Source of the DNA: Luteitalea pratensis
GTDB lineage: Bacteria; Acidobacteriota; Vicinamibacteria; Vicinamibacterales; Vicinamibacteraceae
DNA: 64,000 bases
Direction of reading: 5' to 3'
Assembly: GCF_001618865.1 (NCBI RefSeq)
Contig: NZ_CP015136.1
Location: 1,027,001-1,091,000, forward strand
Part shown: positions 10,414 to 33,020 of the stretch, one piece after another
How the letters are laid out: every line of letters begins with the position of its first letter
How positions within the stretch are numbered: the stretch's first letter is position 1
Notes under the pieces: model-generated
Told to the model about the DNA's origin: nothing
Databases searched by the model: none
The model's input: the letters and a program-made list of their open reading frames with translations, nothing else
Program-made: the position numbers and the translations under genes

Positions 10414-10512
10414 CTACTTCTTCTTCGTGGCCTTCTTTGCCGTCTTCTTGGCGGGTTTCTTCTTGCCGCCGCCGGCCTGACCGCCGCCGGGATCGCCTTC
10501 TTTAGCTGCCAT
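10414..10512 (-). CDS. 32-residue Lys/Ala-rich histone-H1-like mini-protein
   Basis: A tiny gene overlapping the last 11 bases of the kinase gene in another frame. It begins MAAKEGDPGGGQAGGG and ends in a basic tail of KKPAKKTAKKATKKK type, much like the C-terminal tails of histone H1 or bacterial Hc1/AlgP-like proteins. A consensus AAGGAGG lies 6 bases upstream of the ATG (10512) and a strong terminator lies 6 bases after its TAG. Translation is therefore very likely. The basic tail should bind DNA or RNA, and the Thr residues could be targets of the overlapping Ser/Thr kinase. That last point is inference. Confidence 0.75.
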   Translation of the reverse strand: MAAKEGDPGGGQAGGGKKKPAKKTAKKATKKK

Positions 10513-14228: not shown

Positions 14229-15119
14229 ATGACGCCTTGCAGCCGACGCACGCGACGCGAATTCCTCAAGACCGGCCTGGCCGCGGGAACGCTGGCCATG
14301 TCCGGCGCGCTTCCCCTCGCCGCGCAGCGCGGGAAGGCGACCGACCTGGTGACCCTCGGCCGATCGGGAGTCAAGGTGACACGGCTGGCCTTCGGCACGG
14401 GCAGCTTCAGCGGCCGCGTGCAGCGGGAGCTCGGGCAGGACGGGTTCACGCGGCTGGTGCGTCACGCGTACGACAGCGGCATCCGCTTCTTCGAAACGGC
14501 CGAGTCGTACGGCGAGATGCACAAGATGCTCGGTGTCGCCCTGAAGGGCATCCCCCGCGACAGCTACCAGATCATGTCGAAGGTGACGACCAGGGACGGT
14601 GTCGATCCGCAGAAGAAGTTCGACGAGCTCCGCACGCTCGCCAACACGGAGTACTTCGACATCATGCTGCTGCACTGGCAGCACACGGCGTCGTGGCCCG
14701 CCGACACGGCGCGCTGGCAGGACGCGATCCTCGAGGTCCAGTCACGCAAGGTCGTGCTCGGCCACGGCGCCTCCGTTCACGGCCTACCGGCCCTGCGCCG
14801 GGTTCCCGGCAACGACTGGCTCCAGGTCGCGATGATTCGCGTGAACCACATCGGCAAGGCCATGGACGCCGAGGACTACAACACGCAGGGGCTCGGCAAC
14901 GTGCCGGAAGTCGTGTCCCGTGTCCAGGAGGTCCGCAAGCAGGGCATGGGCGTGATCTCGATGAAGCTCGTGGGGGAAGGCACGTTCGATCGCGAGGACC
15001 GGCGGAAGGCGATGCGGTTCGCATTCCGCAATGCGGGTGTCGATTGCGTCACCGTCGGCTACAAGGCCCCCGCCGAGATCGACGAAGCGATCGAGAACCT
15101 GAATCTGGCCCTGGCATAG
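14229..15119 (+). CDS. Tat-exported aldo/keto reductase
   Basis: A 296-residue protein. Residues 1-32 are a twin-arginine signal (TRREFLKTG, then a hydrophobic Ala/Leu stretch ending LPLAAQ). The rest is an aldo/keto reductase TIM barrel beginning VTLGRSGVKVTRLAFGTGSF. The active-site Tyr (ETAESYG), Lys (IMSKVT) and His (MLLHW) are present. The usual catalytic Asp in FDTA is Glu here (FFETAESYG). The barrel is shorter than the ~320 residues typical of cytoplasmic enzymes. AGCGGAGGA-like sequence precedes the ATG. Its leader has a near-identical orphan copy at 4909. The substrate is unknown. Confidence 0.85.
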   Translation: MTPCSRRTRREFLKTGLAAGTLAMSGALPLAAQRGKATDLVTLGRSGVKVTRLAFGTGSFSGRVQRELGQDGFTRLVRHAYDSGIRFFETAESYGEMHKMLGVALKGIPRDSYQIMSKVTTRDGVDPQKKFDELRTLANTEYFDIMLLHWQHTASWPADTARWQDAILEVQSRKVVLGHGASVHGLPALRRVPGNDWLQVAMIRVNHIGKAMDAEDYNTQGLGNVPEVVSRVQEVRKQGMGVISMKLVGEGTFDREDRRKAMRFAFRNAGVDCVTVGYKAPAEIDEAIENLNLALA

Positions 15120-15143: not shown

Positions 15144-18100
15144 TCATGGCCACTGCTCGGCGACATCCGTTATCGCGCCGATGACATCCACCGCCGCCGC
15201 GTCGCCGCCAAGCAGCGTGACCGCCGGTGCCCACGCCTCCACTATCACCAGCGCATCAGCGCGATGGCTGCGGGCGTGAGCATGAAGCGCGGTGCGAAAT
15301 ACCGGCAGAAGGTGTGGGCGCATGTCGGCACCCAAGTGCGAATGGCACCTGCGAAGAAGCGCTCCAACGCGCACAGGCGTGTCGATCCGCTCCAATAACC
15401 GAGCCAACTCCTGGCGATCCCGATCCCGCAGACCCGCGACGAGAACCGGAACGACGAGGTCATGGCGCTCCGGCGTCAGGTAGTCCGCCAAGCGTGCCAG
15501 GAGCGCGGCGCAGTCGCTGCTGTTGAGCGCCTGCGACTGTCGCACGATCTCATCGAAGCGATCGTGTTCAGAGTCCAGCCGGTCGAGTCTCCGCCATAGC
15601 TCCCCGACAGTCGATCCTGCTTGTGTCACGCGAATCGGAGGTCGCTTGTCTGACGAATACGCAGCGCGGACCGCGGGCTTCAGCTCGTCGAGGAGCGACT
15701 CGATCAAACGATCGGCGATAGCAGGATCCCGAGAAAGGCCGGGAGCGGTTCGATCGTCTTTCGCGGAGATGCCTTGTGCTGCGTCCGGCCACCCGTTCCG
15801 AATGTCGGCACGGATGCTGTCTGCGGCACGCTGCCATGCCTCGAGAACAGCCGCATCGAGCTTCGAACGGACAAGAGTGAGCCGCCGCCAACGCTCGGTC
15901 TCCAGCGGAGTCTCGAGCAGCGCGGCGAGCACTTCGCGCTCGCGTGGCGGGTCCAAACGATCGGCGATCGCCAGCAGCGCGTGTGCGCCCCATGTGCCAC
16001 GACCGAGGCCCAGCGCAACCGCCAACGCCGACGAGCGCGATTCTTCGTCGACGATGAATGGAGCAATGCTGGTGAGCAGCTCTGTAATCTGCCGCGGGCG
16101 GGTCGATCCGGGCAGGTCGTCCAGCAGTGCCGCCAGGTGACGAGGGAGGAGCTGCGGCGCGAGGCTCTCTACCAGCAGGACACGTTCCGCGCACTCTGCC
16201 CGATTTCCGTTCGGGGGCAGCGCTCGCAGGAGCGCGATGGCCTGGTTCGCATCGAGCTTGTGTGCCAGCTTGCGAAACGCCTGCATCGCGTGAATCGGCT
16301 GTTGGACGCTCTCTTCGACGAGAGTGTCCACGAGCGGCGCGGGCACGCTTGCTGCGTATTCGACCATGCTGACCGTTGCGCCAACCCGAAGAGCATGGTG
16401 ACCGGTCCTGCGTGCATCGCGCAGCGCCTCCTGCAGCAAAAGCTCATCGACCGGTACGCTCGCGACAGCGGCCTGACCGAGTGCGATCGAACGACAGCTC
16501 GGATCCGTGATTGCCCGCGCCAGCGCCACCAATTCCTGTAATGGCAACCTGGCGCGGCTGGAAGTCGCCCAGCCAATCGCCTCGCAACGCAACGAATCGT
16601 GGCGCAGCGTTCGAATCGCGTCTACGTAGGAACGGATTGCTGATGCGGGCCATGCGGCTGCTGCTGTGCGCAGCCACGCGAATGTGACCTCGTCCTCCGC
16701 GATTTCGATGAGCATCTCCGCTGCGCGTTCTGCCCGTACAGGAGTCAGTAGGGCAGGCCAGCGTGCCACCAGCGCCGACAGTGCCTCCAGCCACGCAAAA
16801 TCTGTCGTGATGCCCTCGAGCAAACCAACCGCGTGAGACTGCAGGCCGTCATTCAGGAAGGGCGCCCATGCAGCGAGCAGTCGCCCGCGAGACGCCGCGG
16901 ACAACAAGCCATCGGCGACATTCAGCACCGGCGCTCCAATTGCTGCGCGCTCGTCCGCGGCAACGTCGCACAGGACCCGCACACAGTATTCCGTGGGAAG
17001 CATGCCCGTGACTCGTGCAACGACGGCCGCAGCGGCGGTGTCGGGAAGCCGCGGGATCAGCTCGCGCAGGGCCTGGAACCGAAGGTCCACCTCTGCTGCC
17101 TGACCGACGATGTTCAATACGTCGAGCAGATATGACGGGGCGGCCACGCCGCAAGCGACGGCCGCGGCCACGCGTCGCAGCGGGTCGGGCTCAGCGGCGA
17201 TCGAGGCCAGCGCGAGTTCGAAAGTCTTGTCGCGGGACCGGCCACTCTGCCGCTCGGCGAGCCGAATCTGAAGCCTGCCGCGATCGGCCGCCGCTTCAAC
17301 CGCAGCCACGGCGGCGACGGCGCGAACCAGCGAGCCCGCTGGCGCGAACACGGCGAGGCTGCGAATGGCACTTCGGCGAAGAACCGCATCTCCAATCTGC
17401 CCAGCCGTTTCAGCGAGGAGGCGTACAGCCGCCGGAGACAGATCACGCTCGAGAGCGAGGCGGCACACACTTGCGTGTCGCGCGACGTCGTTGTCGGCCG
17501 ATTGCAGCACGCGCTCGACCTGCGCCGCCATCGAGGCGTCGAGGCCGCCGGCGTCGAGGAAAGCCTCCCTGGCACGACGCTGTTGCGCTGCGATGTCATC
17601 CAGCCACTTCCTCGTCTCAGCCGGCAAACGCGCGAGCTCGCGTGCAGCGTTGAGCTCTGGCGGCGACCACGGCAACGAGGCACTGGCCAACGCGTCGCGG
17701 TCAACGTCCGCGGCGATCAACACCGCTGCCGGCAGCTGCAGATGCCGTGGCAGCGCTGGCGACAAACGCAGCAGCGCACGCGTTCGATCGGCCGACGGGG
17801 GACGAATACCGAGCCACTTCAACGCTGATGCCATCACCCGCGCCGGCGCGTCCACCATCGCCACGGCGAGCGACTCGAACAACTCGGGCCATTCGAACCC
17901 GGTGCGGCCATCGATAGGCGAGTCGAACGCTCGTGCGAGCACAATCCAGCGATCGGGTGGCGCCAGGAGTGGCGACACATAGATCGATGCGGCTGCCTGG
18001 ACGCTCGAAGTCGGCAGTGAGCGCCCAGCGGCAAGCAAGTGATTGACCGCATGGGCGGCGCCGCTCGGGCAGAATTCGGCGAGCGCGCGCACCGCTCGCA

Positions 18101-21100
18101 TTCGCGGAGCCACGTCATCAATCCGGCGCGCTGCGGCCACAGCTGTCGTGGTCTGTTCTGTCGGTAGCACGCGCGCCAGCGCCGCCAGTGCGTCGCTGCG
18201 CAGATTCCGATCCCTGATGGCTATGGCGGCAGCTGTTGCGTCGCCGAGCACCGACTGCGACGTGGGCATGAGGTCCACGGCCATCTGCACCAGACGTCGG
18301 CCCATTGCCGGTGCATCGATTTCGGCTGACAGCCGCAAAGCGTGGCCAAGAAGTCCGAGGCGTCCGTCTGGCGGCAGCTGGCCAATCAGGGCAAACCATC
18401 TGTCCAGACGTGCGCCCGGATCGGGGAGTTTCCCCGCGAGCGCAATCGCATCATCGATTCGCCAGGTGCGATACCAGGCGGTGAGCTCGCTCAGCCATCG
18501 CTCGCGCTGCTGCGCCGAGCCGAGCCGGGCAACCGCATCGAGCACCGGGCCGAAGTGTGCCGAAGCGTCAGGACCAAATGCCATGAGGCGGAACGTCCCT
18601 TGCTCTATGGCGTTGAGCGTCGACGCGGCTTCGAGCCAGCGCACCAGGGTCTGCTCACGAACGACAGGCAGCAGTGCGACCAGGCAATCAACGCGAAGGG
18701 TCGGTCTGATGTCCTTCGCATCGCAAACGGCCGCGAGGGCCATGGTCATTAGTTCATCCGAAGGTCGCGCCAGCCTGGCAACCCTCAGCGGTATCTCGAG
18801 GTCCTGCAGCGGCGCGCGAAGCGCCGCCGCAAAGATTCCCTCACGCGAAATGTCCGGCATCGACGCCGAATCGAGCAACTGCTCGCGAGTTGACTGATCC
18901 ACGTCACCATGCCCCCAAAGTACGCGCGCGAGCTGTGGAATCGCCGCGGCAGTATCGGCGTGAGGCGGCCACAATTTCGAGCATGGCAGCAGAGTCAGCG
19001 CATCGACCAGTTCGCTCGAGCGAAGTCGTACATAGGGCGAACCAGCCTCGCCCCATCGATCCTCTGCGGCCAGAACAAGTGGCACCGCGTCACGAAGGAT
19101 CGACGGCTCGACACCATCGATCCCGTCCACGAGCACGCGCAGGCTCGCGCTGAGCGACGGTGGCGCTGTCGCCGCGAGAGCAGACCTCGCGATCGCCTCG
19201 GGCCGATCGGCTGACGTCGCTCCCGTGGCCTCAGCCCCGAGGTCCAGCGCCATCAACTGGCCAACGATGGCGATCCGGTGCGTCCAACCGGGTTGTCTAT
19301 GGCGAGGCGATTGCGCGAACCTTTCGGCCAGACGCCGCGCCGTTGACCATAAAGACGCTCGATCGACCTTCGCGGCGATCAGCATCAGACGGATCTGCGA
19401 CGTGCTCGAGCCTCCGTCGATCGCGGCAGGCCGCCACTCTTCGAACGAGTCACCCGAGCCCTCGGGCTGCAGCAGATCCACCAGGGCTGCCATGGCGGCG
19501 GATGCTGATTCACCGACACTCTTCTCAGCGATGACCGCGAGTGCTCGCTCGGCGACGAACGACTGCAGCGCCGGCTCGGGACGCGAGCGAACCAGTGCCG
19601 CGCACAATGCGAGACACTCGTCACGGAGGAAACGCAAACGCGCTGCCTGCTTCTCGAACCAGATTCGGGCTTCGTGTTCCGATGTTGCGCTGGCCCACTC
19701 CAGATCGCTTCGCCACCTATCGTCTCCCGGGTCTGCGAGCAATTCTTCAGCGTGCATCGCCGCAGCGACGAGACGTTTGGCCGATGGCGACGCATCGTGG
19801 AGGATCGCCCGCAGTTCGTGGAGTCGCTCCGGAGGCGGCAGACGGCGTGCCGCCATGGTCAGGAGTTCCAGTTGCGGCGCCGCCAGGTACGGAACGAGTT
19901 CGGCGCGCGACGCATCTGCGCGCGTGCGCGGCAAGGCTTGCCACGCACGGCACAGCAGCGTGAATCCGTCAGGACCGAGATCGCTCCCGGCCACGATCGC
20001 CGACCCCAGAACCTGAGCTGCCGCGTACAGCGCCGCCTCCCGCAAGCCATTCGTGTCGCTTCGAGTCCCATCGCCAATAGCGCGCTGTAGCATCGACAGG
20101 CGCTCGGCCGCCGTCGATCGCGAACCTGTCGCGACAGCATCACGCAGGTCGGCGTAACCACTCACATCGGCAGGCGCCGTGTCGGGGGACGCGGCCGCCG
20201 CTGCCGCACGAACGATGGCTCGCTGCTCCGGAGACACCGTGCACCGCGCCGCTGCCTCAGTCACTGCCGCACGGACGATGTCGAGTTGCTCGCCGTTCAA
20301 TCCATGCTGAGCAATGCGCCATACCGCTTCCAGGAAGCGGCCAGCCATCGCCGGACCAGTATGAAGGTTCTTGGCGTTGGCTATGGTCCGCAACACACCG
20401 CGAAGAATCGTGATTCCCTCTTCGTTTCGGAGCAACGCTCGCAACTCGCCAAGACCCGCCGCGAGTGCGAGCGGACGGTCCGCGTCGGCAGTGACCGCAG
20501 CCAGCGCCAGGACCGAATGGAAGCGATCTTCCTGATCAGGGATTCTCGTGGCGTATGCGATTGCCTGCTCCGAGGTCCAGACACCGCACTCCAGCAAGGC
20601 GCACAAGAGTGCCGCCGGCATGTCAGCGGCTTGACTGGCGATGCTCGAGGTGCACAACGGGCCGCGAAGTTCCGTCGCCAGATAGCGCACGGGCTCACCG
20701 CGGCCGCTCGCCGCGTCGTCGTCTCGGGCAGCGATCTCGCATGCCCTGCGCAGGTCACCAAGGAATCCGCCGTAGCTTCCCTTGTCGATCCGGTCCCACG
20801 CGCGGACCCACGCATTACTGGCCATGCCCAGGTAGTCGTCAACAGTGCAGGCGGCACGGTCGAAGTGCGGCCGCGTGAAATACAGCAGATAGGCGGGGAC
20901 CTCGCTGACCGGCCGGCTGCCATCGGCAACTCGCGTGAGCCATGCCCGGCACCAGCGCACGTAGCGCAGTTCCTGATCGTGTTGCTGGCCGGCGTTGGCG
21001 AGTCGATCGTAGAAGTACTCGGCAAGTCGTGGATGACTGAGCGCGTATCCCTGGGTGTCGCCGTCGCCGACGACGAACCGCTTCAAGTCGCTCATCACAT

Positions 21101-22574
21101 CGTCGAGCGTCCACACCGCCATCGAACGCGGGCCGGGAAGCAGTTCGAGCAGTTCGGCGGTCAGCAACGGTCCGAGCGCACAGGCGAGCGCGTTGAAGAC
21201 GCCATCGACAGCCGGTTCCTTGAACGGCGAATCATCGCCCCAGAGCGCGCGCTGGTCATCCCACCACCGATGAAAGTAACCCTCGAGCCCGGGTTCGAGC
21301 GCGCCGAGGTCCTCGGGCCGAAGACGTGCGACTTCCTCGCCGCGTGCCCACAAATCCGAGACGTAGAGATTTACGAGCAGCGGATCCCCTTCTGTCAGGC
21401 GGAATAGCTCCGCCACGACGTCGGCGCGTTGGCTCAGTACCTCCAGCGGCACACTCGATTTCTGTAGCACGTCGGTCAGACCGCGTGCGCTGAGAGGCGG
21501 CAGATCGAATGGATGTGCCAGGCGCAAACCACTCCATCCCAGCCGTGCAATCCAGCCGCGCGCGTCCACGTCACCGGCCAGATACCGCGCTGAAACGACG
21601 ATACGCAGACGCTCGGTAGGCACAGCCGGAAAGAGATCCGGCCCGAGCTCCCAATCCGCGCTTTCGTCGGCACCATCGAGGATGACCAGAAGACGGCGCC
21701 CTGCTGGCGGGGGACGCCGCAGGTACGCCGCCGTCAATTCCCTCCACACTTCGGCTGGCGTTTCCGGTCCCGCGAGCAGTGGTTCTCCATGGACGGTCGC
21801 GAGTCGCGCCGCGATCGAGGTGAACGCCACGTTTGCCAGATTCGTCCGAAAGCGGATGCTGATCGGAAAGTAGACGAGCGCCAGGTCCGCGTGCCGCGTC
21901 AGCTGCCTCGCCCAGTGCACGAGCAGCGCGGATTTGCCACGGCCCGCTGGTCCTGCGACGAGGGCATAGGGTGCGGCGCGTGGATCGGCCAACCACCGAT
22001 CCAATTGCGCGAGCTCTGCATTGCGACCGCCAAATGGCACTGGCGCGTCGGGCCTCCCGAGGTATTCCTCGAGGAATCGCTGGATTCGGCCGTCGAAGTC
22101 ACCGTGGAGCTGCCGCGCGCCGTGCGCGACCAGCCGGTCGAATATGAGGTTGTGCAGGTCGGCGACGATGCGCGTCGCAAGTTCGGCTGCAGTCTCGAAC
22201 TGGACGACTGTATGGGCCGCCTGCAGCTCGCGTAACCATGCGGCGCGGCGCTCCGCCTCGTGACGGGGCTGCGGATCGTGCGCTGGCGGGTTCGCCTTCA
22301 GGTAGATCAGGCACGGCAGACCGCGCGCGATCGCGCGGCGGTACTCCTCTGCGGTGATGCCGGAACCCCAACGATGGCCGATGACGCCGACGTAGATGTG
22401 GGAACGGTCGACTTCATCCAGCGATGCCTGCCGCGTCGTCGCCGTCCGGGCCCCGAAGTACTCCATCCCGACGAAGCGGATAGACTCTAGCCGTCTCGCG
22501 GCCCGTTCGATCGCGTCGCGCTCGACAATGAGATCGATCCAGGTGGAGCTGACGAATACCTTCAGTGGTTCCAT
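15144..22574 (-). CDS. Giant DUF4062 / STAND-NTPase / helical-repeat protein
   Basis: This 2476-residue protein is by far the largest in the window. Residues ~4-95 are a DUF4062 domain (KVFVSSTWIDLIVERDAI, GMEYFGART, YVGVIGHRWG). A P-loop NTPase of the NACHT/STAND type follows, with Walker A GPAGRGKS at 208-215 and Walker B LLVILDGADE at 295-304. Residues ~600-2470 are almost entirely Ala/Leu/Arg-rich helical repeats of HEAT/TPR-like character, with recurring R-x-x-A-L-x-x-L-A patterns. No signal peptide or membrane helix is visible. DUF4062 next to NACHT also occurs in eukaryotic TEP1. In bacteria such proteins are often treated as ligand-sensing switches. It is divergent, by 89 bases, from the contractile-sheath genes. 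No effector domain was recognised, and DUF4062 itself may be the output. Function unknown. Confidence 0.8.
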   Translation of the reverse strand: MEPLKVFVSSTWIDLIVERDAIERAARRLESIRFVGMEYFGARTATTRQASLDEVDRSHIYVGVIGHRWGSGITAEEYRRAIARGLPCLIYLKANPPAHDPQPRHEAERRAAWLRELQAAHTVVQFETAAELATRIVADLHNLIFDRLVAHGARQLHGDFDGRIQRFLEEYLGRPDAPVPFGGRNAELAQLDRWLADPRAAPYALVAGPAGRGKSALLVHWARQLTRHADLALVYFPISIRFRTNLANVAFTSIAARLATVHGEPLLAGPETPAEVWRELTAAYLRRPPPAGRRLLVILDGADESADWELGPDLFPAVPTERLRIVVSARYLAGDVDARGWIARLGWSGLRLAHPFDLPPLSARGLTDVLQKSSVPLEVLSQRADVVAELFRLTEGDPLLVNLYVSDLWARGEEVARLRPEDLGALEPGLEGYFHRWWDDQRALWGDDSPFKEPAVDGVFNALACALGPLLTAELLELLPGPRSMAVWTLDDVMSDLKRFVVGDGDTQGYALSHPRLAEYFYDRLANAGQQHDQELRYVRWCRAWLTRVADGSRPVSEVPAYLLYFTRPHFDRAACTVDDYLGMASNAWVRAWDRIDKGSYGGFLGDLRRACEIAARDDDAASGRGEPVRYLATELRGPLCTSSIASQAADMPAALLCALLECGVWTSEQAIAYATRIPDQEDRFHSVLALAAVTADADRPLALAAGLGELRALLRNEEGITILRGVLRTIANAKNLHTGPAMAGRFLEAVWRIAQHGLNGEQLDIVRAAVTEAAARCTVSPEQRAIVRAAAAAASPDTAPADVSGYADLRDAVATGSRSTAAERLSMLQRAIGDGTRSDTNGLREAALYAAAQVLGSAIVAGSDLGPDGFTLLCRAWQALPRTRADASRAELVPYLAAPQLELLTMAARRLPPPERLHELRAILHDASPSAKRLVAAAMHAEELLADPGDDRWRSDLEWASATSEHEARIWFEKQAARLRFLRDECLALCAALVRSRPEPALQSFVAERALAVIAEKSVGESASAAMAALVDLLQPEGSGDSFEEWRPAAIDGGSSTSQIRLMLIAAKVDRASLWSTARRLAERFAQSPRHRQPGWTHRIAIVGQLMALDLGAEATGATSADRPEAIARSALAATAPPSLSASLRVLVDGIDGVEPSILRDAVPLVLAAEDRWGEAGSPYVRLRSSELVDALTLLPCSKLWPPHADTAAAIPQLARVLWGHGDVDQSTREQLLDSASMPDISREGIFAAALRAPLQDLEIPLRVARLARPSDELMTMALAAVCDAKDIRPTLRVDCLVALLPVVREQTLVRWLEAASTLNAIEQGTFRLMAFGPDASAHFGPVLDAVARLGSAQQRERWLSELTAWYRTWRIDDAIALAGKLPDPGARLDRWFALIGQLPPDGRLGLLGHALRLSAEIDAPAMGRRLVQMAVDLMPTSQSVLGDATAAAIAIRDRNLRSDALAALARVLPTEQTTTAVAAARRIDDVAPRMRAVRALAEFCPSGAAHAVNHLLAAGRSLPTSSVQAAASIYVSPLLAPPDRWIVLARAFDSPIDGRTGFEWPELFESLAVAMVDAPARVMASALKWLGIRPPSADRTRALLRLSPALPRHLQLPAAVLIAADVDRDALASASLPWSPPELNAARELARLPAETRKWLDDIAAQQRRAREAFLDAGGLDASMAAQVERVLQSADNDVARHASVCRLALERDLSPAAVRLLAETAGQIGDAVLRRSAIRSLAVFAPAGSLVRAVAAVAAVEAAADRGRLQIRLAERQSGRSRDKTFELALASIAAEPDPLRRVAAAVACGVAAPSYLLDVLNIVGQAAEVDLRFQALRELIPRLPDTAAAAVVARVTGMLPTEYCVRVLCDVAADERAAIGAPVLNVADGLLSAASRGRLLAAWAPFLNDGLQSHAVGLLEGITTDFAWLEALSALVARWPALLTPVRAERAAEMLIEIAEDEVTFAWLRTAAAAWPASAIRSYVDAIRTLRHDSLRCEAIGWATSSRARLPLQELVALARAITDPSCRSIALGQAAVASVPVDELLLQEALRDARRTGHHALRVGATVSMVEYAASVPAPLVDTLVEESVQQPIHAMQAFRKLAHKLDANQAIALLRALPPNGNRAECAERVLLVESLAPQLLPRHLAALLDDLPGSTRPRQITELLTSIAPFIVDEESRSSALAVALGLGRGTWGAHALLAIADRLDPPREREVLAALLETPLETERWRRLTLVRSKLDAAVLEAWQRAADSIRADIRNGWPDAAQGISAKDDRTAPGLSRDPAIADRLIESLLDELKPAVRAAYSSDKRPPIRVTQAGSTVGELWRRLDRLDSEHDRFDEIVRQSQALNSSDCAALLARLADYLTPERHDLVVPVLVAGLRDRDRQELARLLERIDTPVRVGALLRRCHSHLGADMRPHLLPVFRTALHAHARSHRADALVIVEAWAPAVTLLGGDAAAVDVIGAITDVAEQWP

Positions 22575-22663: not shown

Positions 22664-23524
22664 ATGCAACTACCCGATCTCGATGCGCTGCTCGTACCGG
22701 TTTCCGCGGACGAACCCTGCGGTCCGAACCTCGAATACGCGCCCTTGTTCGCGGAACTCGAAGCCGCCATCGCCGGCCGGCCCGAACGGCAGTTCGGGAA
22801 CTTCATCGAGCCGGCGCAAGGTCCCGACTGGGCGCGTGTGCAGGAACTGGCGGCGAAGCTCCTTTCACAAACAAAAGATCTGCGTGTGGCGATTGCATGG
22901 ACTCGGGCGCTGACGGTCACCCATGGCCTGGACGGCGCAGCAGCCGGCCTTCAATTGATCGCGCGCCTGTTGACGACGTGGCCGCGCGACGTTTACCCGG
23001 TGGTCGAACCCGATGAAGACCGACCTCCCCTGAGGTGGTTTGTTCTGGCCAACCTGGCTGCGCCACGCGGACTCCTGCACGATCTTCACGGGACGAAGTC
23101 TGGCGCCGAGGCGTCGATAGGCGCAGAGTGGGCGCGGATAGACGAAGCCTTGATCACCATTCGCGAGGTGCTGTGGGACACGGCCCCCGGTAACGCCCTG
23201 CCGGAATTGTGGAGTTCCATCGGCGTCGATGGGGCCGTCGATTCTGGCGCCATGCGGCCATGGCCAGAAGGCGAACCGGTTGCCGCCGACGCGACAGTCT
23301 GGTCGAAGGACCAGCAGGGGTTGCTCGAGTCGATTTGTGATCTGATCGAGCGCGCTGGTTTCGACGCGGCGTCGGTCTGTCGCCGTGCGCACCGTATCAG
23401 CGTCAGCCGGTACCTGGATCTCGCTGCAGACGTAGCGCCACCGAGCCGCGAGCACGCCGCGTCATCCCGGCAGCCGCGCGGTTCCGACCAGGCTCGTCGG
23501 TCAGACGGACGCGGACAGTCGTGA
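22664..23524 (+). CDS. tssA: TssA-like (ImpA N-terminal domain) type VI secretion protein, short form
   Basis: A 286-residue protein. Residues ~3-145 match the ImpA_N domain of TssA: LDALLVPVSADEPCGPNLEY, then an FGNFIEPAQGPDW block, then LRVAIAWTRALTVTHGLDG and WPRDVYPVVEPDEDRPP. TssA organises baseplate and sheath assembly in type VI systems. The large C-terminal ring-forming region of classical TssA (total 350-550 residues) is replaced by ~140 residues with an Arg/Ser-rich end, so this is a short TssA. ATG 22664 is chosen; a TTG lies in frame 6 bases upstream. Its stop overlaps the GTG of the sheath gene (GTGA). No other baseplate genes are nearby. Confidence 0.8.
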   Translation: MQLPDLDALLVPVSADEPCGPNLEYAPLFAELEAAIAGRPERQFGNFIEPAQGPDWARVQELAAKLLSQTKDLRVAIAWTRALTVTHGLDGAAAGLQLIARLLTTWPRDVYPVVEPDEDRPPLRWFVLANLAAPRGLLHDLHGTKSGAEASIGAEWARIDEALITIREVLWDTAPGNALPELWSSIGVDGAVDSGAMRPWPEGEPVAADATVWSKDQQGLLESICDLIERAGFDAASVCRRAHRISVSRYLDLAADVAPPSREHAASSRQPRGSDQARRSDGRGQS

Positions 23525-25116
23525 AGCACACATCGATACCGCGAACGCCCTCGCGCATCGCCATGCACTACGAGGTGGACGTCAATGGCGCCACCCGACG
23601 TGTTGAGCTTCCCTTCGTGCTGGGTGTCATGGCCGACCTGTCCGGTCAGCCTGACCAGCAGCTCGAACCGCTGGACGCTCGCGAATTCGTGCCGGTCGAC
23701 GCCGACACCTTCGACACGCTGCTGGCGGCGGCCCGACCGCGCGTGATGTTTCAGGTCCCGAACCATCTCGTTGACGATGGCTCCGATTCGTCGATTGAAC
23801 TGACTTTCGGGTGTCTCGACGATTTCGCGCCCGGGCGTGTAGCGCATCGCATCACGGCGTTGCACCATCTGCTCGAGCGCCGGAGCAACGGCGGCGAAGC
23901 AGCGGCACGCCAGATCGACGCGCTCGTTGACAAGCAGCTGAGCGCGATTGTTCATCACCCTTCCTTTCAACGGCTCGAAGCGACGTGGCGCAGCCTGCAC
24001 CGTCTCGTGACGCAGACCGAAATCGATGACGACCTGAAGATCGCAGTGCTGAACGTCACGAAGCTGGAGGTCGGAAAGACCCTCAAACGATACAAGGGGG
24101 CTGGATGGGATCGGAGCCCGATCTTCAAGAGGATTCACGACGAGCGCTATGGCGCCGCGGGCGGAGAACCGTTCGCGTGTCTGCTGCTCGACTACGAGTT
24201 CGACCATGGTCCGGCCGACGTGGAAATGCTCACGCAGTTGTCGAAGATCGGTGCGGCGGCATCTGTGCCGTTCCTGGGCGCGGCCGCGCCAAGGTTATTC
24301 AGCCTCGACTCGTGGCTGGAGCTGTCGCAACCGATTTACCTGGCAAAGATCTTCGCCTCGCCTGAGTACGCGGCGTGGCGATCGCTGCGAGAGGCCGAGG
24401 ATGCCCGTTACCTTGTACTGACCTTGCCGCGATGCGTGGTCCGGTCCCGTTACGAACGACGAAGCAGCGTCGCTGACGAGTACGACTTTCACGAGGACGC
24501 CGGAGACGGCCACGCCGGGATCCTGTGGGGCAACGCCGCCTATCTGTTCGCCGAAAACATCCTGCGTTCCTTTCGAATCCACGGCTGGCCGACACGGATC
24601 AACGGCTTGCAGACGGGAGGGGCCGTCGAGGGGTTGCCGCCGGTATCTGTGCCGAGACCGACCGGGCCTGGGCACACGATGGTCGTCACCGAAACGATGG
24701 TGCCCGACCGTCGTGAAGGCGAACTGGCGCAGTGCGGCTTGACCGCGCTGGTTGCGCGCGGCGAGTCTGGTCTCGCGGAATTCGTCAGCGCCGTCACCCT
24801 CAGCAAGCCGATGCAGCACCTCGACTCCGACGCGACCGCGAATGCGATACTCGCGTCTCGACTCGCCTCTGTCCTGTCCATCGGCCGCGTCGCACACTAC
24901 ATCAGAGCCATGGCGAGAGATGTGTCGTCGCTTGGTGACCGCGCGACCGTGCAGGCATGGTTCGAGAAATGGATTGCCGACTATGTCGATCCGAGCCCAG
25001 CCTCGCCGGGCGGACTCTTCGCGTTGCCCAGGCCTCTGGCCGCCGCCGAGGTCACGGTCGAGGATGTCGACGGCGGCGGACACACGGTCAAGTTCTTCTG
25101 CCGTCCGAACTTCTGA
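23521..25116 (+). CDS. TssB-TssC fusion: single-chain type VI contractile sheath protein
   Basis: One 531-residue chain carries both sheath subunits. Residues ~10-122 are TssB-like (ELPFVLGVMADLSGQP, FVPVDADTFDTLL, FQVPNHLVDDGS, LDDFAPGRVAHRI). Residues ~126-531 are TssC-like (HHPSFQRLEATWRSLHRLV, DLKIAVLNVTKLEV, ILWGNAAYLFAENI, VTETMVPDRREGELAQCG, and at the end WIADYVDPSPASPGG, VKFFCRPNF). Separate TssB and TssC total ~650 residues. The missing ~120 fall at the junction, which is the TssB C-terminus and the TssC N-terminus, where the ClpV-binding helix of VipB lies. The GTG start is supported because PSRIAMHYEVD aligns with the TssB N-terminus. Translationally coupled to TssA. No ClpV, Hcp, VgrG, TssK or membrane complex is present in the window. 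Confidence 0.85.
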   Translation: MKHTSIPRTPSRIAMHYEVDVNGATRRVELPFVLGVMADLSGQPDQQLEPLDAREFVPVDADTFDTLLAAARPRVMFQVPNHLVDDGSDSSIELTFGCLDDFAPGRVAHRITALHHLLERRSNGGEAAARQIDALVDKQLSAIVHHPSFQRLEATWRSLHRLVTQTEIDDDLKIAVLNVTKLEVGKTLKRYKGAGWDRSPIFKRIHDERYGAAGGEPFACLLLDYEFDHGPADVEMLTQLSKIGAAASVPFLGAAAPRLFSLDSWLELSQPIYLAKIFASPEYAAWRSLREAEDARYLVLTLPRCVVRSRYERRSSVADEYDFHEDAGDGHAGILWGNAAYLFAENILRSFRIHGWPTRINGLQTGGAVEGLPPVSVPRPTGPGHTMVVTETMVPDRREGELAQCGLTALVARGESGLAEFVSAVTLSKPMQHLDSDATANAILASRLASVLSIGRVAHYIRAMARDVSSLGDRATVQAWFEKWIADYVDPSPASPGGLFALPRPLAAAEVTVEDVDGGGHTVKFFCRPNF

Positions 25117-25214: not shown

Positions 25215-25244
25215 TTGACACTTCGCGCTCCGGTCGCCTACAAT
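25215..25244 (+). promoter_or_regulatory. Sigma70-type promoter of the prolyl oligopeptidase gene
   Basis: TTGACA (25215-25220) is separated by 18 bases from TACAAT (25239-25244), about 50 bases upstream of the ATG at 25296. It shows that the peptidase gene has its own promoter and is not part of the TssA/sheath operon. Confidence 0.6.
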
Positions 25245-25295: not shown

Positions 25296-27497
25296 ATGCA
25301 TCTCGTCCGGCGTTTGCCAAGCCTGAGGCTTGCTGCGTGGCTGCCGCTGCTCCTCGTTTCAATTTCATACGTCGTCTCCGCGCAAGACGCGGCGCCGAAG
25401 GCGCCTGTTCGCGAAGTCACCGACACGTATTTCAATACAAAGGTCGTGGATCCGTATCGCTGGATGGAGGACCTGAAGGGACCGGAGATGGTGACGTGGA
25501 TGAAGGCGCAGAGCGCATACACGCGCCGCTACCTTGATGCGTTGCCAGTTCGTCTCGCACTCCTGAAACGCGTCGACGATTTGAGCAACGCCAATGTGGT
25601 CGTCTCCGGCGCACAGCGCGCCGGCGATAACTATTTCTATTACAAGCTGGCGCCCGGCGAGAATACCCGCAAGCTCTATGTGCGCGCTGGTCTCAGCGGC
25701 GCCGAGCGACTGCTCCTGGACCCTGACAAACTATCCGAGACAGACGTTCACCACTCGATTGATGCATTCAGTCTGTCCCAGGACGGTCAGTACGTCTCCT
25801 ACACGGTATCGGCCGGCGGCTCCGAAATGGGCGAGCTGCACGTGCTCGATGCCAGGACCGGCCGTGAGTTAGGCGAAAGGATCGATCGTGCCCGCTTCGA
25901 TTCCGGCGCATGGCTGCCCGACGGGAAGTCGTTTCTCTACAATCGTTTGCAAAAGCTACCGCCAGGCGCACCGGCGACTGATCTGTACCAGAAAAGCCGC
26001 GTCTACCGTCACGTGCTCGGAACGGATCCCGAGAAGGACGAAGCGATCTTCGGAGCCGATGTCAATCCGCAGATCACGTTCGAGCCGACGTTGCTGCCCT
26101 TTGCGTACCCGGTTCCAGGCTCCGCGCACGTCATTGCCGTGGTCAACTCCGGGGTCTCGCCGAATTCCGCGTTCTACGTCGCGCCCGCTGCCTCGCTGGG
26201 ACTCTCGCCGATACCTTGGCGGAAGATCGCGGACTTCGCCGACGAGGTGAGTAACGTGGACCTGCACGGGGACGATCTATACGTGCTCACGTACAAGCAG
26301 ACGCCGCGCTTCAAGGTCGTCCGCACGAGTCTTTCCCATCCCGACTTGACGAAAGCACAGACGGTCATTCCGGCGAGCGACGCGGTCGTCACAGCGATCG
26401 CGGCCGCGAGCGATGGTCTGTACGTCCAGGCGCTCGATGGTGGGATCGGCCGCTTGTGGCGCGTGGATTACGGCGACGGATCTGCGGAAGCGATCACATT
26501 ACCGTACAAAGGATCGCTGTCCATCGCGAACTACGACCAGCGGATGGCTGGCGTGCTGTTCGTGACGAGTTCCTGGACCAGGTCCCCGACGATCTATGGA
26601 TACGACGCGGCGAAGCGAGCTGTCGTGGACACATTGCTGCAGCCGCCCTCGCCTGTTGATTTCTCCGGCATCGAATCCATCGAGGTCAAAGCCAAGGGCC
26701 AGGATGGCGTCATGATTCCGCTGTCGATTATCTACAAGAAGGATATGAAGCACGACGGCACCAACCCGACCATCCTCGGCGGGTATGGCGCATATGGCAT
26801 CAGCCGCGAACCATCATTCTCGCCTGGCTCGCTCGCGTGGTTGGAGCGTGGCGGCATCGTGGCCGTGGCGCACGTTCGCGGCGGCGGTGAGTACGGCGAG
26901 GAATGGCACATGGCCGGCTACAAGCAGACGAAACCGAACACGTGGAAGGACTTCATCGCTTGCGCCGACTACTTGATCCGTGAAAAGTTCACGAGCCCCA
27001 GGTACCTGGCCGGAGAAGGCGGCAGCGCAGGTGGCATTCTCATCAGCAACACCATTACGGAGCGGCCGGACCTGTTCGGCGGGGCGATCATTCACGTTGG
27101 CGTCAACAACACGCTGCGGGCTGAAACTACGTCGAACGGCGTACCGAATATTCCCGAGTTCGGCACCGTCGCGACCGAGGAAGGATTCAAGGCCCTGCTG
27201 GCCATGGATGGGTATCACAAGGTCAAGAACGGAACGCCGTACCCTGCCGTCCTGTTGACGACTGGCATCAATGATCCACGTGTCGAACCGTGGATGTCGG
27301 CAAAAATGGCGGCGAGGCTGCAGGCCGCGACATCCAGCGAGAAACCGGTTCTGTTGCGGGTCGATTACGACGCCGGTCACGGCGTCGGCTCGACCAAGCA
27401 GCAGCGGAATGAAGAGCGCGCGGACGTGTTTGCATTCCTCCTGCAACAGATTGGCTCCGGCGCTGGCACGAGCAGCAGCGTCGTCAGCATCAAGTGA
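25296..27497 (+). CDS. Secreted prolyl oligopeptidase (S9A)
   Basis: A 733-residue protein with a signal peptide (residues 1-31, ending VVSAQ) followed by the propeller gate (~35-430) and the alpha/beta hydrolase catalytic domain. Family motifs are TYFNTKVVDPYRWMED at the N-terminus, the nucleophile Ser in GEGGSAGGILIS, the Asp in GINDPRVEPW and the His in DAGHGVGSTKQQ. The triad is complete. It should cut short proline-containing peptides in the periplasm. The ATG at 25296 has GGAAGGAG eight bases upstream and directly starts the signal peptide. Longer upstream frames run back into the sheath gene and are rejected. Confidence 0.92.
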   Translation: MHLVRRLPSLRLAAWLPLLLVSISYVVSAQDAAPKAPVREVTDTYFNTKVVDPYRWMEDLKGPEMVTWMKAQSAYTRRYLDALPVRLALLKRVDDLSNANVVVSGAQRAGDNYFYYKLAPGENTRKLYVRAGLSGAERLLLDPDKLSETDVHHSIDAFSLSQDGQYVSYTVSAGGSEMGELHVLDARTGRELGERIDRARFDSGAWLPDGKSFLYNRLQKLPPGAPATDLYQKSRVYRHVLGTDPEKDEAIFGADVNPQITFEPTLLPFAYPVPGSAHVIAVVNSGVSPNSAFYVAPAASLGLSPIPWRKIADFADEVSNVDLHGDDLYVLTYKQTPRFKVVRTSLSHPDLTKAQTVIPASDAVVTAIAAASDGLYVQALDGGIGRLWRVDYGDGSAEAITLPYKGSLSIANYDQRMAGVLFVTSSWTRSPTIYGYDAAKRAVVDTLLQPPSPVDFSGIESIEVKAKGQDGVMIPLSIIYKKDMKHDGTNPTILGGYGAYGISREPSFSPGSLAWLERGGIVAVAHVRGGGEYGEEWHMAGYKQTKPNTWKDFIACADYLIREKFTSPRYLAGEGGSAGGILISNTITERPDLFGGAIIHVGVNNTLRAETTSNGVPNIPEFGTVATEEGFKALLAMDGYHKVKNGTPYPAVLLTTGINDPRVEPWMSAKMAARLQAATSSEKPVLLRVDYDAGHGVGSTKQQRNEERADVFAFLLQQIGSGAGTSSSVVSIK

Positions 27498-28697: not shown

Positions 28698-29117
28698 ACC
28701 TTACGATGGGCAGCGCCGCCAGGCGCATCCGAGCGCGGACGATGCGCGAGCGCTGCGACGAACCGGCGCGCGCCAGACAACCCAGCATGCGCATCGGGAA
28801 CGTGTGAACTCGATTCATGGGCGCGCTGCGACGAACGCGAGCGCCATGACTGCCATCCGCTGGGCGAGGGGCATGGCCACACTATATTCGCGGACGCCAT
28901 CGCCATATTCGCGATGACCATGCGCCGGTCGCATCGCGCCCCACGTCATCCCGAGCACGTCCGGCACGGCGATGGTGAGGGCATCGACCACGATGTTCGG
29001 GAAATCCGGCTTCTCGACGACGAGCCGATGCACGCCTGGACCTCATGGCGCTGCCTCAGGCCACCGGCGCCTGACACGCTAGTGGACATCCGACCGCCGC
29101 GCACGTTCAAATGCCAC
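28698..29117. other. 420-bp region without a convincing gene
   Basis: Upstream regions of two divergent genes meet here. A minus-strand frame of 72 codons (28815-29033) contains a plausible sequence ending MPLAQRMAVMALAFVAARP, but no ribosome binding site or family match was seen. The short repeat ATATTCGCG occurs twice near 28883-28914. Nothing else was recognised. Confidence 0.4.
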
Positions 29118-29429
29118 ATGAAGAAACGCACGGAAGAACGCCTGCCATCGGATCGCACGCCGGCGACGGCCACCGTCGCGGAAGCGATTGGCGCAGAAGC
29201 CATCGGGGCACAGGCGATCGGCGCCCAAGCCGTCAAGGTCCAGGCTATTGGCAGCCTCGCCATCGGAGCGCTCGCCGTCGGAGCCGTGGCGATCGGCGCG
29301 CTCGCCCTGGGCCGCGTGGTCATCGGTCGCCTGACCGTCCGACGCACTCGACTCGGCGTCGTCGAAATCGACGAGCTTCGAGTCGGACGCCTGTACATCG
29401 GCGAACAGACTGAAGAGCACAGTCGATAG
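29118..29429 (+). CDS. Small pentad-repeat (A-I-G-A-x) protein
   Basis: A 103-residue protein. After a charged N-terminus (MKKRTEERLPSDRTPATAT) residues ~20-72 are built from five-residue units of the type AIGAE/AIGAQ/AVKVQ/AIGSL/ALGRV. The last part reads RTRLGVVEIDELRVGRLYIG. The five-residue period with small and aliphatic residues at fixed positions suggests a narrow right-handed beta-helix like pentapeptide-repeat proteins. The strongly hydrophobic middle could instead be membrane-associated. Similar short proteins occur in Acidobacteriota without known function. ATG 29118 is chosen because the repeat region begins soon after. No clear Shine-Dalgarno sequence. Confidence 0.65.
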   Translation: MKKRTEERLPSDRTPATATVAEAIGAEAIGAQAIGAQAVKVQAIGSLAIGALAVGAVAIGALALGRVVIGRLTVRRTRLGVVEIDELRVGRLYIGEQTEEHSR

Positions 29430-29990: not shown

Positions 29991-32663
29991 CTAGTCCTGC
30001 CGCAAGGCATCCATCAGGTTGACTCGCGCCGCGCGCCACGCCGGCAGTGCGCACGCGATCAGCCCAAGCAGCACGAAGAGCAGCGCGGCACTGCCAAGCG
30101 TCAGTGGGTCGGTGGGCGGGACCCCGAACAGCAGAGTGTGAAGGAGGCGGCCCATCAGCACGGAGAAGCCGAGCCCCAGCGCCACCCCGAACCCAATGAG
30201 GCGCAGCCCTTCACCGAACACCAGCGACAGGATCTCGGTGCGCTGCGCGCCAATTGCCTTGCGCACCTCCATTTCCTTCAGCCGCGATCCCACCGACAGC
30301 GACAGCACGCCGTAGAGCCCGACGAGCGAGAGCAGCGTTGCGACGACGGCGAACCCGACCAGCAGGTGCATGGCGAAGATGCGCGGCGCGATCGACTCCT
30401 GTCGGAGCTGCGCCATCGCCTTGACCTGCTCGACCGCGGCGGCGGGATCGACCTCTCGAATCGCTCGACGGATGGGGCCGGCCAAGGCCAGCGGATCGCC
30501 GCTGGTCCTGACGATCAGATGCTTGGAGAACGCCCTCTGCTGCCAGAGCGGGAGGTACGCTTCCGGCGTGGCCGGTTCGCTCAGGGCGTCGGTGCGCGCA
30601 TCGGCGACGACGCCGACGATCGTCATTGGCGGGGTGCTCGCGTTGCCGGCGAAGCGAATCGAGCGCCCGAGCACGACGCCGGTGCCGAACTGGCTGGTCG
30701 CGAACGCCTGGTTGACGATGACGACCGGCGGCGCGCCGCGATCGTCGGATTCGCGGAAGGCGCGGCCGTCGGCCAGGCGGATCCCCATCGCCGCGAAGTA
30801 GTCGGGGGTGACGGCGCGCAACGGCACATGCAGCTCCTCGGCGAGGCGATCGGTGCCGGCGTTGCCGACGATCTCCAGCGTTGCCGGCCAACTGTTGCCG
30901 GTCAGGGGCACGCCCCAGGCGAAGGCAGCCTGCCGCACGCCGGGGAGGTGCGACACGCGCTCGAGCGCGTCGGCATGGAAGGTCTTCCAGGCATCATCGC
31001 GCTGCATGGTCGTTACGGCCATCGTGAGCACGTGCTCGGTGTCGTACCCCGGGCGCAATTCGGCGAGGTTCCGCGCGCTGCGGACCAGCAGCGCGGCTCC
31101 CGCGAGCAGGCCGACCGTGAGCACGATCTGAAGTGCGGCCACGCCGCCGATCAGGCGCCGCTCGGCCGGACCCGCGGTGGTGCGGGTACTCGCGACGCCA
31201 TGCGAATGCTCACCGAAGGCGGCGCGGGCGGCCGGCAACAGTCCGGCGATGGCCGCCGCGATCGGGGCGACCACCGCGCAGAATGCGAACACCGGCCAGC
31301 CGATCGCCACTGCATCGGCGCGGGGCAGGGCGTGTTCACCGACCGAGAGGAACAGCGCGACCATCACCACGGCGAAACCGCCGCCGACGACTGCACCGAC
31401 CAGGGCGAGCGCAACGGACTCGGTCAGTGCCTGTCGGAAGAGTCGCTGCCATGTGGCCCCGATCGCCGTCCGCAGCAGGTAATCGCGCTGCCTATGGAGT
31501 CCTCGTGCCAGCAGCAGGCCGGCGACGTTGGCGCACGCGATGAAGAAGACCAGCGCGACCGCGCCGAACAGTGGCACCAGCAGGCGCCGGCCGTCTTCGT
31601 TCAGCACCTCGAGGACTGGACGCGCCGTCGCCGTCAGCCCGTCGAGCGTCGCGTCCTCTGTACGCTGTCGCGCCGCGACCGCGCTGACGTCAGCGTTCAC
31701 CGCGGCGGCCGACATCCCAGGCGCCAGGCGACCCACGACGTTCCACTGGCGCTGAGTCAGCTGCGACTCATCGGCGAGGGCCGGCAGCCAGAAGTCCACG
31801 TGCGCGTCGACGTCGTAGCCCGGTTCGCTGACGTTGGCCGGATCCGGGAGAAAGCGGATGCCCGGAGGCATCACGCCCACTATCGGCAGCGGGGCAGGCA
31901 TCCGGCTGATTTGCAGGGTCCGGCCAATGATGTCCGGGTCGCCGTTGAACGTGCCTTGCCAGAGTTCGTAGCCGATGATGACGGCCGTCGGAGGACCGCT
32001 GCTGGCGGCTTCCGAGGCAAGGAACTCCCGACCGCGCAGCGGCGTCAGCCCGAGGACGCGGAAGTAGTTCGGCGTCACGACCATGCCGCCGAGGGCCGTA
32101 CTGCCTTCGCTCCGGACCAGGAAGTTGAACATCCACCGGTAGAGCGCGGTCTCGACCCTGGGACTGGAGGCACGCCAGGCGAGCCACTGCGTCGTCGTCG
32201 GACGCTGTGGGTACGGCGATCCGTCGAGGCGTGCCGGCGACAGCAACACCAGGCGGTCCGGTTCGGCGTAGGGGGGCGGCGACAACAGCACGCCTTGAAT
32301 CAAGCCGAACATCGCGGCCGCGCCTCCGATACCCAGCCCCAAGGTGAGCACCGCCACCAATGAGAACGCGGGCGCCCGGTAGCCCTGACGGAAGGCGTGG
32401 CCGAGGTCGCGCCAGAGATCGGCCAGCCCGCGTCCGACGGGGATCCGCTCGCGCTGGTCGTGGAGCTTCCTGGTCATCGGGCCAACGCCACCCACCTCGA
32501 CCTGCGCGCGTCGTCGCGCCTCGTCGGGGGCGTGCCCGGCGGCAATGCCCTGATCGGTGCGCTCGTCCACGAAGGCGCGAAGTTCCTGCTCGATATTCGG
32601 GTCCGGATCGGTGCTCCGGAACAGTTGTGCGCAGCGCGCACGTAGTCGCGACATCGGCGGCAT
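29991..32663 (-). CDS. ADOP-family MacB/FtsX-like permease
   Basis: An 890-residue permease of the acidobacterial duplicated orphan permease type. Residues ~20-75 hold the N-terminal acidic helical domain ([20 protein letters not shown]). Two copies of the MacB periplasmic core plus FtsX domain follow, with transmembrane helices near 100-120, 370-390, 420-445, 465-490, 510-530, then 770-795, 820-840 and 855-875. FtsX-type motifs include [19 protein letters not shown] and [18 protein letters not shown]. No ATPase is encoded nearby, as usual for the family. The ATG at 32663 has AGAGGAAA upstream, and only 15 bases separate it from the PadR stop. Confidence 0.92.
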
Positions 32664-32678
32664 GACTCGTTTCCTCTT

Positions 32679-33020
32679 TTAGGCGCTGCGAAGCACCTGC
32701 GCCACCGCCGCCACGACGCGGTCCCAGGTGTGCTCCTGCTCGACCAGTTGCCGGCGTCCGGTCGCGGTCAGGGCATAGGTCCGGACGCGGCGTCCCTCTT
32801 CGGTCGTCGTCCACTGGGCGGTGGTCCATCCCGCGTGTTCGAGGCGGTGGAGTGCTGGGAAGAGCGAGCCAGGCTGCACGTCGAAGGTGCCCTGGGTGAC
32901 CTGCGCAATCCGGTCGGCGATGGCCACGCCGTGCAGCGGGCGCGGCGACAGTGTTCGCAGGATCAGGAGGTCGAGGGTGCCGCGCAGGACATCGGTGCGA
33001 GTGGTGGTCAGCTTGGGCAC
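32679..33020 (-). CDS. PadR-family transcriptional repressor
   Basis: A 113-residue winged-helix regulator. It has the PadR pattern DVLRGTLDLLILRTLSPRPL, then HGVAIADRI, then QPGSLFPALHRLEHAGW with the wing TTTEEGRRVRTYALTATGRR and a C-terminal dimerisation helix. The start is GTG (33018-33020). It is the first gene of a PadR-ADOP operon, a standard acidobacterial pairing in which PadR likely represses itself and the permease. A tandem 17-bp repeat begins 13 bases upstream of the start codon and is the probable operator. Confidence 0.9.
   Translation of the reverse strand: MPKLTTTRTDVLRGTLDLLILRTLSPRPLHGVAIADRIAQVTQGTFDVQPGSLFPALHRLEHAGWTTAQWTTTEEGRRVRTYALTATGRRQLVEQEHTWDRVVAAVAQVLRSA

Follow-up and report, generated by a model that had tools for sequence, protein, structure and literature searches.

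A single-chain TssB-TssC gene of Luteitalea pratensis with a deleted junction and a shortened C-terminus

A tssA-like gene next to a fused tssB-tssC gene

We analysed a window of 64,000 nucleotides from the genome of Luteitalea pratensis (contig NZ_CP015136.1, positions 1,027,001 to 1,091,000), which is assembled as one contig of 7,480,314 bases. At 23521-25116 on the forward strand lies an uninterrupted frame of 531 codons, which starts with GTG, overlaps by 4 bases with the stop of a tssA-like gene (22664-23524, +) and encodes the T6SS sheath proteins TssB and TssC in a single chain of 531 aa. The TssB half matches positions 9-121 of the 160 positions of TIGR03358 (112.8 bits, cutoff 97.25) and the TssC half positions 53-457 of the 473 of TIGR03355 (406.3 bits, cutoff 271.5), while the Pfam domains T6SS_VipA, VipB and VipB_2 all score above their cutoffs within the same chain. 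With scores of this size, an open frame that arose by chance can be excluded, and they confirm the original prediction that both proteins are joined in one open frame. A stop or shift that might have been missed at 23870-23920 is not present, since the frame is open throughout; a frame error or a hidden stop at this position is thus ruled out by the uninterrupted translation. The same genome harbors a canonical T6SS cluster at 1.54-1.57 Mb, in which TssA, TssB and TssC are encoded by separate genes (hereafter referred to as the resident genes) and for which Pfam also identified TssL, TssM, Hcp, TagJ, TssE, TssF, TssG, a ClpB-type ATPase and VgrG- and PAAR-like proteins.

Measured against the resident proteins, the junction (aa 122-127, 23884-23901, +) lacks about 114 residues in total, 45 from the end of TssB and 69 from the start of TssC, in good agreement with the roughly 120 residues that had been estimated from the sequence before. 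The ClpV-binding helix in the N-terminus of TssC, whose absence had also been proposed, is indeed missing: the TssC profile match begins only at position 53 of 473, and the first alignment to P. aeruginosa TssC1 at chain position 31, which corresponds approximately to residue 68 when the tracing limits given in PMC5807055 are taken into account. Behind the junction follow the TssC core (Pfam VipB, aa 129-427, 23905-24801, +, 320.8 bits) and the gpW/gp25-like handshake domain VipB_2 (aa 438-531, 24832-25113, +), which is truncated and covers positions 2-97 of the 112 profile positions.

In the TssB half, the counterpart of the donor strand beta-1 (aa 12-21, 23554-23583, +; role according to PMC5807055) is kept by alignment, and so is the helix with the hydrophobic motif that contacts TssC (aa 107-118, 23839-23874, +). 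The spacing of its residues V107, I111, L114 and L118 equals that of the contact motif V106, I110, L113 and L117 in TssB of EAEC (PMC3840085). The leucine-rich end of the contact helix is the portion removed by the junction; in EAEC, substitution of this end had no effect according to the available text of PMC3840085. Ahead of beta-1, the columns of the TagJ-docking residues Lys9 and Phe10 are changed, whereas the resident TssB retains the HsiB1-like stretch SSQKFIARNRAPR, a TagJ motif. Docking of TagJ at the N-terminus of TssB through this stretch was seen in the HsiB1-HsiE1 complex (PMC4239648). An AlphaFold model of the 531-aa monomer built with seven sequences reached a mean pLDDT of 39.4 and was too poor for use.

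The tssA-like gene encodes a protein of 286 aa, in which the ImpA_N/Nt1 part is kept (102 bits for ImpA_N, with the frame read from 22658) and the C-terminal ring domain is degraded. TIGR03363 is matched at positions 2-121 of 353 only, with 113.3 bits and hence under the cutoff of 160.85, whereas the match of the resident TssA extends from 2 to 347 of 353 (180 bits). The EPSSP motif, which is present in nine of the ten other aligned TssA, is missing, and a short end part of the protein can still be aligned to TssA. Its AlphaFold model, derived from a single sequence, was also too poor for use (mean pLDDT 49.4). For TssA of P. aeruginosa, PMC11106082 reports in its available text that the binding of Nt1 is specific for the cognate sheath and that the ring is formed by the C-terminus; over the Nt1 part, the identity between the tssA-like product and the resident TssA is only 32-34%.

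A Pfam scan of 20 window proteins detected no T6SS genes besides these two, and in particular no tube, baseplate or spike gene. Downstream lies a promoter-like site (25215-25244, +) that matches a sigma-70-like consensus at 11 of 12 positions and precedes a gene for a prolyl oligopeptidase (25296-27497); its position points to 25116 as the end of the unit formed by the tssA-like and the fused gene. Upstream and in divergent orientation, separated by 89 bases from the tssA-like gene, a gene at 15144-22574 (-) encodes a DUF4062-NACHT-type STAND protein of 2476 aa, for which DUF4062 and AAA_16 score above and NACHT below the cutoff. A preprint of May 2026 (PMC13174449) describes, in its available text, DUF4062 proteins as TIR-like NADases in abortive anti-phage defence, one of which is activated by a phage portal; following this source, the protein is probably a TIR-like NADase as well. 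In 192 genomes of the class, the matches to the first 600 residues of this STAND protein outside its own gene were all partial, with E values of 1.4e-10 or weaker, and PADLOC returned no match for the three proteins submitted. When we compared the locus with stretches of 15-19.5 kb from three congeners, the gene at 14229-15119 was the only one in common, besides one match of 88 bases in G187, and therefore no empty site could be demonstrated. Elsewhere in the window, we observed a Ser/Thr protein kinase with TPR repeats (1002 aa, 10502-13510, -), a frame of 171 aa (28914-29429, +) in which short AIGA-like repeats follow one another and which, judged by eye, might represent a beta-helical repeat protein, and a MacB/FtsX-like permease (29991-32663, -) adjoining a PadR-type regulator (32679-33020, -).

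The C-terminus and the exchanged strands

The decisive feature of the chain, overlooked in the original prediction, is a loss at its C-terminus. The last residues read KFFCRPNF, and the chain ends 18-22 residues short of the TssC C-terminus in comparison with each of the 38 canonical TssC, all of which run on beyond this point. Likewise, the five solved TssC chains for which alignments were displayed extend 16-21 residues beyond this end, and the alignment to P. aeruginosa TssC1 stops at chain position 440 of 461. Judged by alignment, the missing segment presumably corresponds to the handshake donor strand beta-13, and the stretch at which the chain terminates (aa 511-531, 25051-25113, +) to the acceptor hairpin formed by beta-11 and beta-12. 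In the 180 bases from the stop onward, nothing resembling beta-13 exceeded the level expected by chance; the best scores in the three frames were 19-21 compared to means of 18.8-20.1 for shuffled sequences, which argues against a nonsense mutation that left beta-13 behind the stop.

In the P. aeruginosa sheath, as described in the available text of PMC5807055, beta-11 and beta-12 of one TssC take up two further strands, beta-13 contributed by the C-terminus of an adjacent TssC and beta-1 contributed by the N-terminus of a TssB. The N-terminus of TssC lies outside this strand exchange, and the region that corresponds to the junction (TssB helix 117-133, TssC helices 39-54 and 66-86) forms the outer, tri-helical domain 3. 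Since the exchanged strands are beta-1 and beta-13, what is lost with the junction deletion is the ClpV side together with the outer helices, and not the strand exchange, whereas the loss at the C-terminus would take away a donor of this exchange. The proposal that the TssC segment lost at the junction carries part of the strand exchange could thus not be upheld, as this architecture rules out an exchange at the junction and the segment belongs to domain 3. In Francisella, deletion of either donor strand, including that of IglB, left the heterodimers in place and abolished secretion (Clemens 2015, as cited in the available text of PMC5924787). A shorter end alone is no proof that assembly is lost, since P. 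aeruginosa TssC2 also carries a C-terminal deletion close to the handshake (PMC5807055).

Relatives and sequence divergence

Both halves of the fusion resemble canonical T6SS proteins. The 17 solved sequences that gave a match are all described in their titles or entries as T6SS sheath proteins, the best of them being TssB1/TssC1 of P. aeruginosa (PDB 5N8N; 395 bits for TssC, 98 bits for TssB), and both halves branch among canonical TssC and TssB. The closeness to phage or extracellular contractile systems that had been suggested finds no support in these results. PHROGs gave no match for the window protein, but a canonical TssC used as a control remained equally without a match, so that this search does not discriminate between the two kinds of sheath. 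The TssC half shares 47.6% identity with the resident TssC and up to 48.5% with its nearest other relatives.

A comparable copy was found neither in 193 genomes of the class (up to seven first-look candidates scored per genome) nor in 396 genomes of the phylum (up to three first-look candidates scored per genome), two sets that overlap and both include the source genome; the fusion had no match in four congeners and no relative on viral contigs. The best 30 of 436 plasmid records all showed two separate pieces, and a contig search covering close relatives returned three loci, at every one of which tssB and tssC are separate. Weak matches in G034, G130 and G164 were dismissed as chance, and longer stretches around them, inspected by eye, were without T6SS-like neighbours.

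The single-chain TssB-TssC architecture as such is not unique to the window. A second, divergent single chain resides in the same genome (L008:8125-9606, corresponding to 1,566,121-1,567,602 of G000), and altogether we examined seven of these divergent chains, five from Acidobacteriota, two of which are near-identical, and the remaining two encoded on plasmids of Leisingera and Eleftheria (L008:8125-9606; L034, L035, L036, L032; L065:13529-17641; L066:5854-7632). VipA and VipB occur together in all seven and VipB_2 in none. The Leisingera member comprises 1370 aa, and the plasmid records label the members as 'contractile sheath large subunit'. With a profile built from the five chains of Acidobacteriota, we searched 392 genomes of the phylum, the source genome among them, and scored up to three candidates per genome. 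At least 18 of these genomes have an uninterrupted frame that covers the 494 profile positions from 22 or less to 487 or more, and 59 have any match. Among the titles and beginnings of abstracts listed in searches of the open-access literature, none described a TssB-TssC single chain.

Like the members of this divergent family, the window fusion carries both VipA and VipB on a single chain, which has no C-terminal donor strand. Unlike the fusion, the divergent chains lack VipB_2, have a longer stretch between the domains, form a clade of their own (SH-aLRT 100) and, in the three clusters inspected, lie near vgrG, PAAR or tssK. The fusion, which has VipB_2 and branches with canonical TssC and TssB, thus stands outside the family, and from the differences in domain content, spacing, clade and gene neighbours we conclude that it is independent of it. 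A common origin with the resident divergent fusion is rejected by both the TssC and the TssB tree, and a shared loss of the same near-invariant positions by the fusion and the divergent family was not significant (p = 0.19).

The trees and conservation counts were based on complete frames of 38 TssC and 36 TssB, from which the complete L047 and L054 frames, duplicates of resident genes and cut frames had been removed by hand. The trees were quick searches with SH-aLRT support only and long-branch warnings, so that the exact placement of the window sequences is unsure; their separation from the divergent fusions received an SH-aLRT of 100. The end branch of the TssC half is 1.78 long compared to a median of 0.17, that of the TssB half 2.78 compared to 0.2. 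The TssC half keeps 73 (68%) and has lost 34 of the 107 near-invariant TssC positions, defined as those with a conservation of at least 97% across the 38 sequences, whereas the canonical TssC, each measured against the other 37, keep 83-100%; the TssB half retains 19 of 29 such positions at a canonical range of 77-100% (36 sequences). As a control, we scored these TssC positions in ImpD from one Rhizobium plasmid, which retains 72% of them, and in the canonical ImpC, which retains 92.5%. The long branch need not mean decay, since ImpD, a TssC relative that is in use and akin to a protein required in Agrobacterium, looks similarly diverged.

When we simulated neutral drift of the resident genes down to 47% identity under two base compositions, none of the 60 runs with either composition remained free of stops; each run contained at least 3, on average 9.5 and 7.6, respectively. 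This indicates that coding constraint was in force while the larger part of the divergence accumulated, and is silent on whether selection still acts on the fusion, which is a single copy without an ortholog in the searched sets. The CAI of the fusion is 0.545 compared to 0.347 for shuffled sequences and 0.69-0.77 for the resident T6SS genes. We discarded the idea of a codon-composition island, as the third-position GC content of 0.77 falls within the range of the window genes, although below that of the resident T6SS genes (0.86-0.90).

Interpretation and comparison with known systems

We favour, at a probability of roughly 0.55, an explanation in which a tssA-tssB-tssC cassette has turned into a mimic of the sheath protomer that does not polymerise and is either repurposed or decaying. 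Rather than a novel type of functional sheath, the window chain is probably a leftover part or one put to another use. Under the mimic reading, tssB and tssC would have become one gene, and parts needed for the life cycle of a sheath would have been lost together, namely beta-13 as the putative donor strand, the TssC helix to which ClpV binds and the TssB residues at which TagJ docks. At the sequence level, the chain still has the cores of both TssB and TssC, the helix through which they contact each other and the portion that aligns with the acceptor hairpin; its TssA-like partner retains Nt1, the sheath-binding domain, with most of the ring-forming domain gone. Such a chain would fold into a self-contained TssB-TssC protomer, with two helices of domain 3 joined by a short turn; it could accept the strand of a neighbour and would be unable to donate its own, and for this reason it would build no contractile sheath. 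Paired with the TssA-like protein through Nt1, it might form a small soluble complex, and one may guess that the mimic serves as a non-secretory adaptor or decoy. Both the folding and the lack of polymerisation are inferred. The long branches and the 34 of 107 lost near-invariant TssC positions, which also fit decay, and a codon bias under that of the resident T6SS genes speak against the mimic.

The closest rival is a decaying relic, i.e. a tssABC cassette, duplicated or imported, whose two ends were lost and which is on its way to becoming a pseudogene. The long end branches of both halves, the loss of near-invariant TssC positions beyond the range of the canonical proteins, the truncation of both the TssA-like and the TssB-TssC protein and the missing match in four congeners would all agree with this. 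However, both frames are intact, coding constraint acted across most of the divergence, the chain ends directly after the conserved hairpin without a shifted remnant, and ImpD, which belongs to a functional paralog group, has lost about as many near-invariant positions, so that we regard plain decay as possible, if doubtful. An unlikely alternative is a regulator of the resident T6SS, in which a protomer that only accepts strands, somewhat like TssE with its own acceptor strands, caps or poisons the growing sheath. The acceptor hairpin and beta-1 of TssB, both kept by alignment, and the handshake-like strands of TssE/gp25 (PMC5924787) would suit this role, but the TssC half is no more similar to the resident TssC than to others, and the cognate-specific binding of Nt1 in P. 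aeruginosa (PMC11106082) contrasts with the low Nt1 identity between the TssA-like protein and the resident TssA.

A functional single-use sheath, as put forward in the original prediction, is very unlikely. It would account for the single chain without a ClpV helix, and it has a parallel in pyocin sheaths, which according to the available text of PMC5807055 likewise lack domain 3 and are not recycled. On the other hand, beta-13 is missing, and deletion of the corresponding IglB strand abolishes secretion (PMC5924787); moreover, no tube, baseplate or spike gene was detected among the 20 window proteins scanned, and the TssC half is no nearer to the resident TssC than to others. It is scarcely credible that an assembly error fused two genes, given a genome in one contig of 7.48 Mb, separate losses at the junction and at the far C-terminus and a clean frame and codon bias. 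Highly improbable, too, is that the pair acts as a bait, with the mimic held by the TssA-like protein and signalling to the DUF4062-NACHT protein, which would deplete NAD once the attack or the assembly of a contractile tail of a phage or a T6SS is sensed; the one argument for it is the proximity of the pair to the gene of that protein. If true, it would mean that sheath genes were recruited into immunity.

Beyond these alternatives, the proposed mimic would offer a natural test of which sheath parts serve folding and which serve polymerisation, with the fold and the contact within the protomer apparently kept. The analysis also led to the wider family of single chains without the handshake domain.

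Among known systems, TssE/gp25 resembles the proposed mimic in that its handshake-like strands can accept the C-terminal strand of the sheath (PMC5924787); unlike the window chain, this sheath initiator is a small baseplate protein. TssC40/ImpD of Agrobacterium and Rhizobium offers another parallel, being a second protein of the TssC family beside TssB and TssC; in the available text of PMC3702570 it is non-redundant for Hcp secretion and marked with '+' in the component table. The one Rhizobium ImpD that we examined differs in that it is not fused to TssB and its VipB_2 match reaches position 111 of 112. With TssB1/TssC1 of the P. aeruginosa H1-T6SS (PDB 5N8N), the chain shares, by alignment, the same core, the contact helix and the acceptor hairpin, whereas the two P. 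aeruginosa chains are replaced here by a single one that lacks the TssB C-terminus, the N-terminus of TssC on the ClpV side and, presumably, beta-13.
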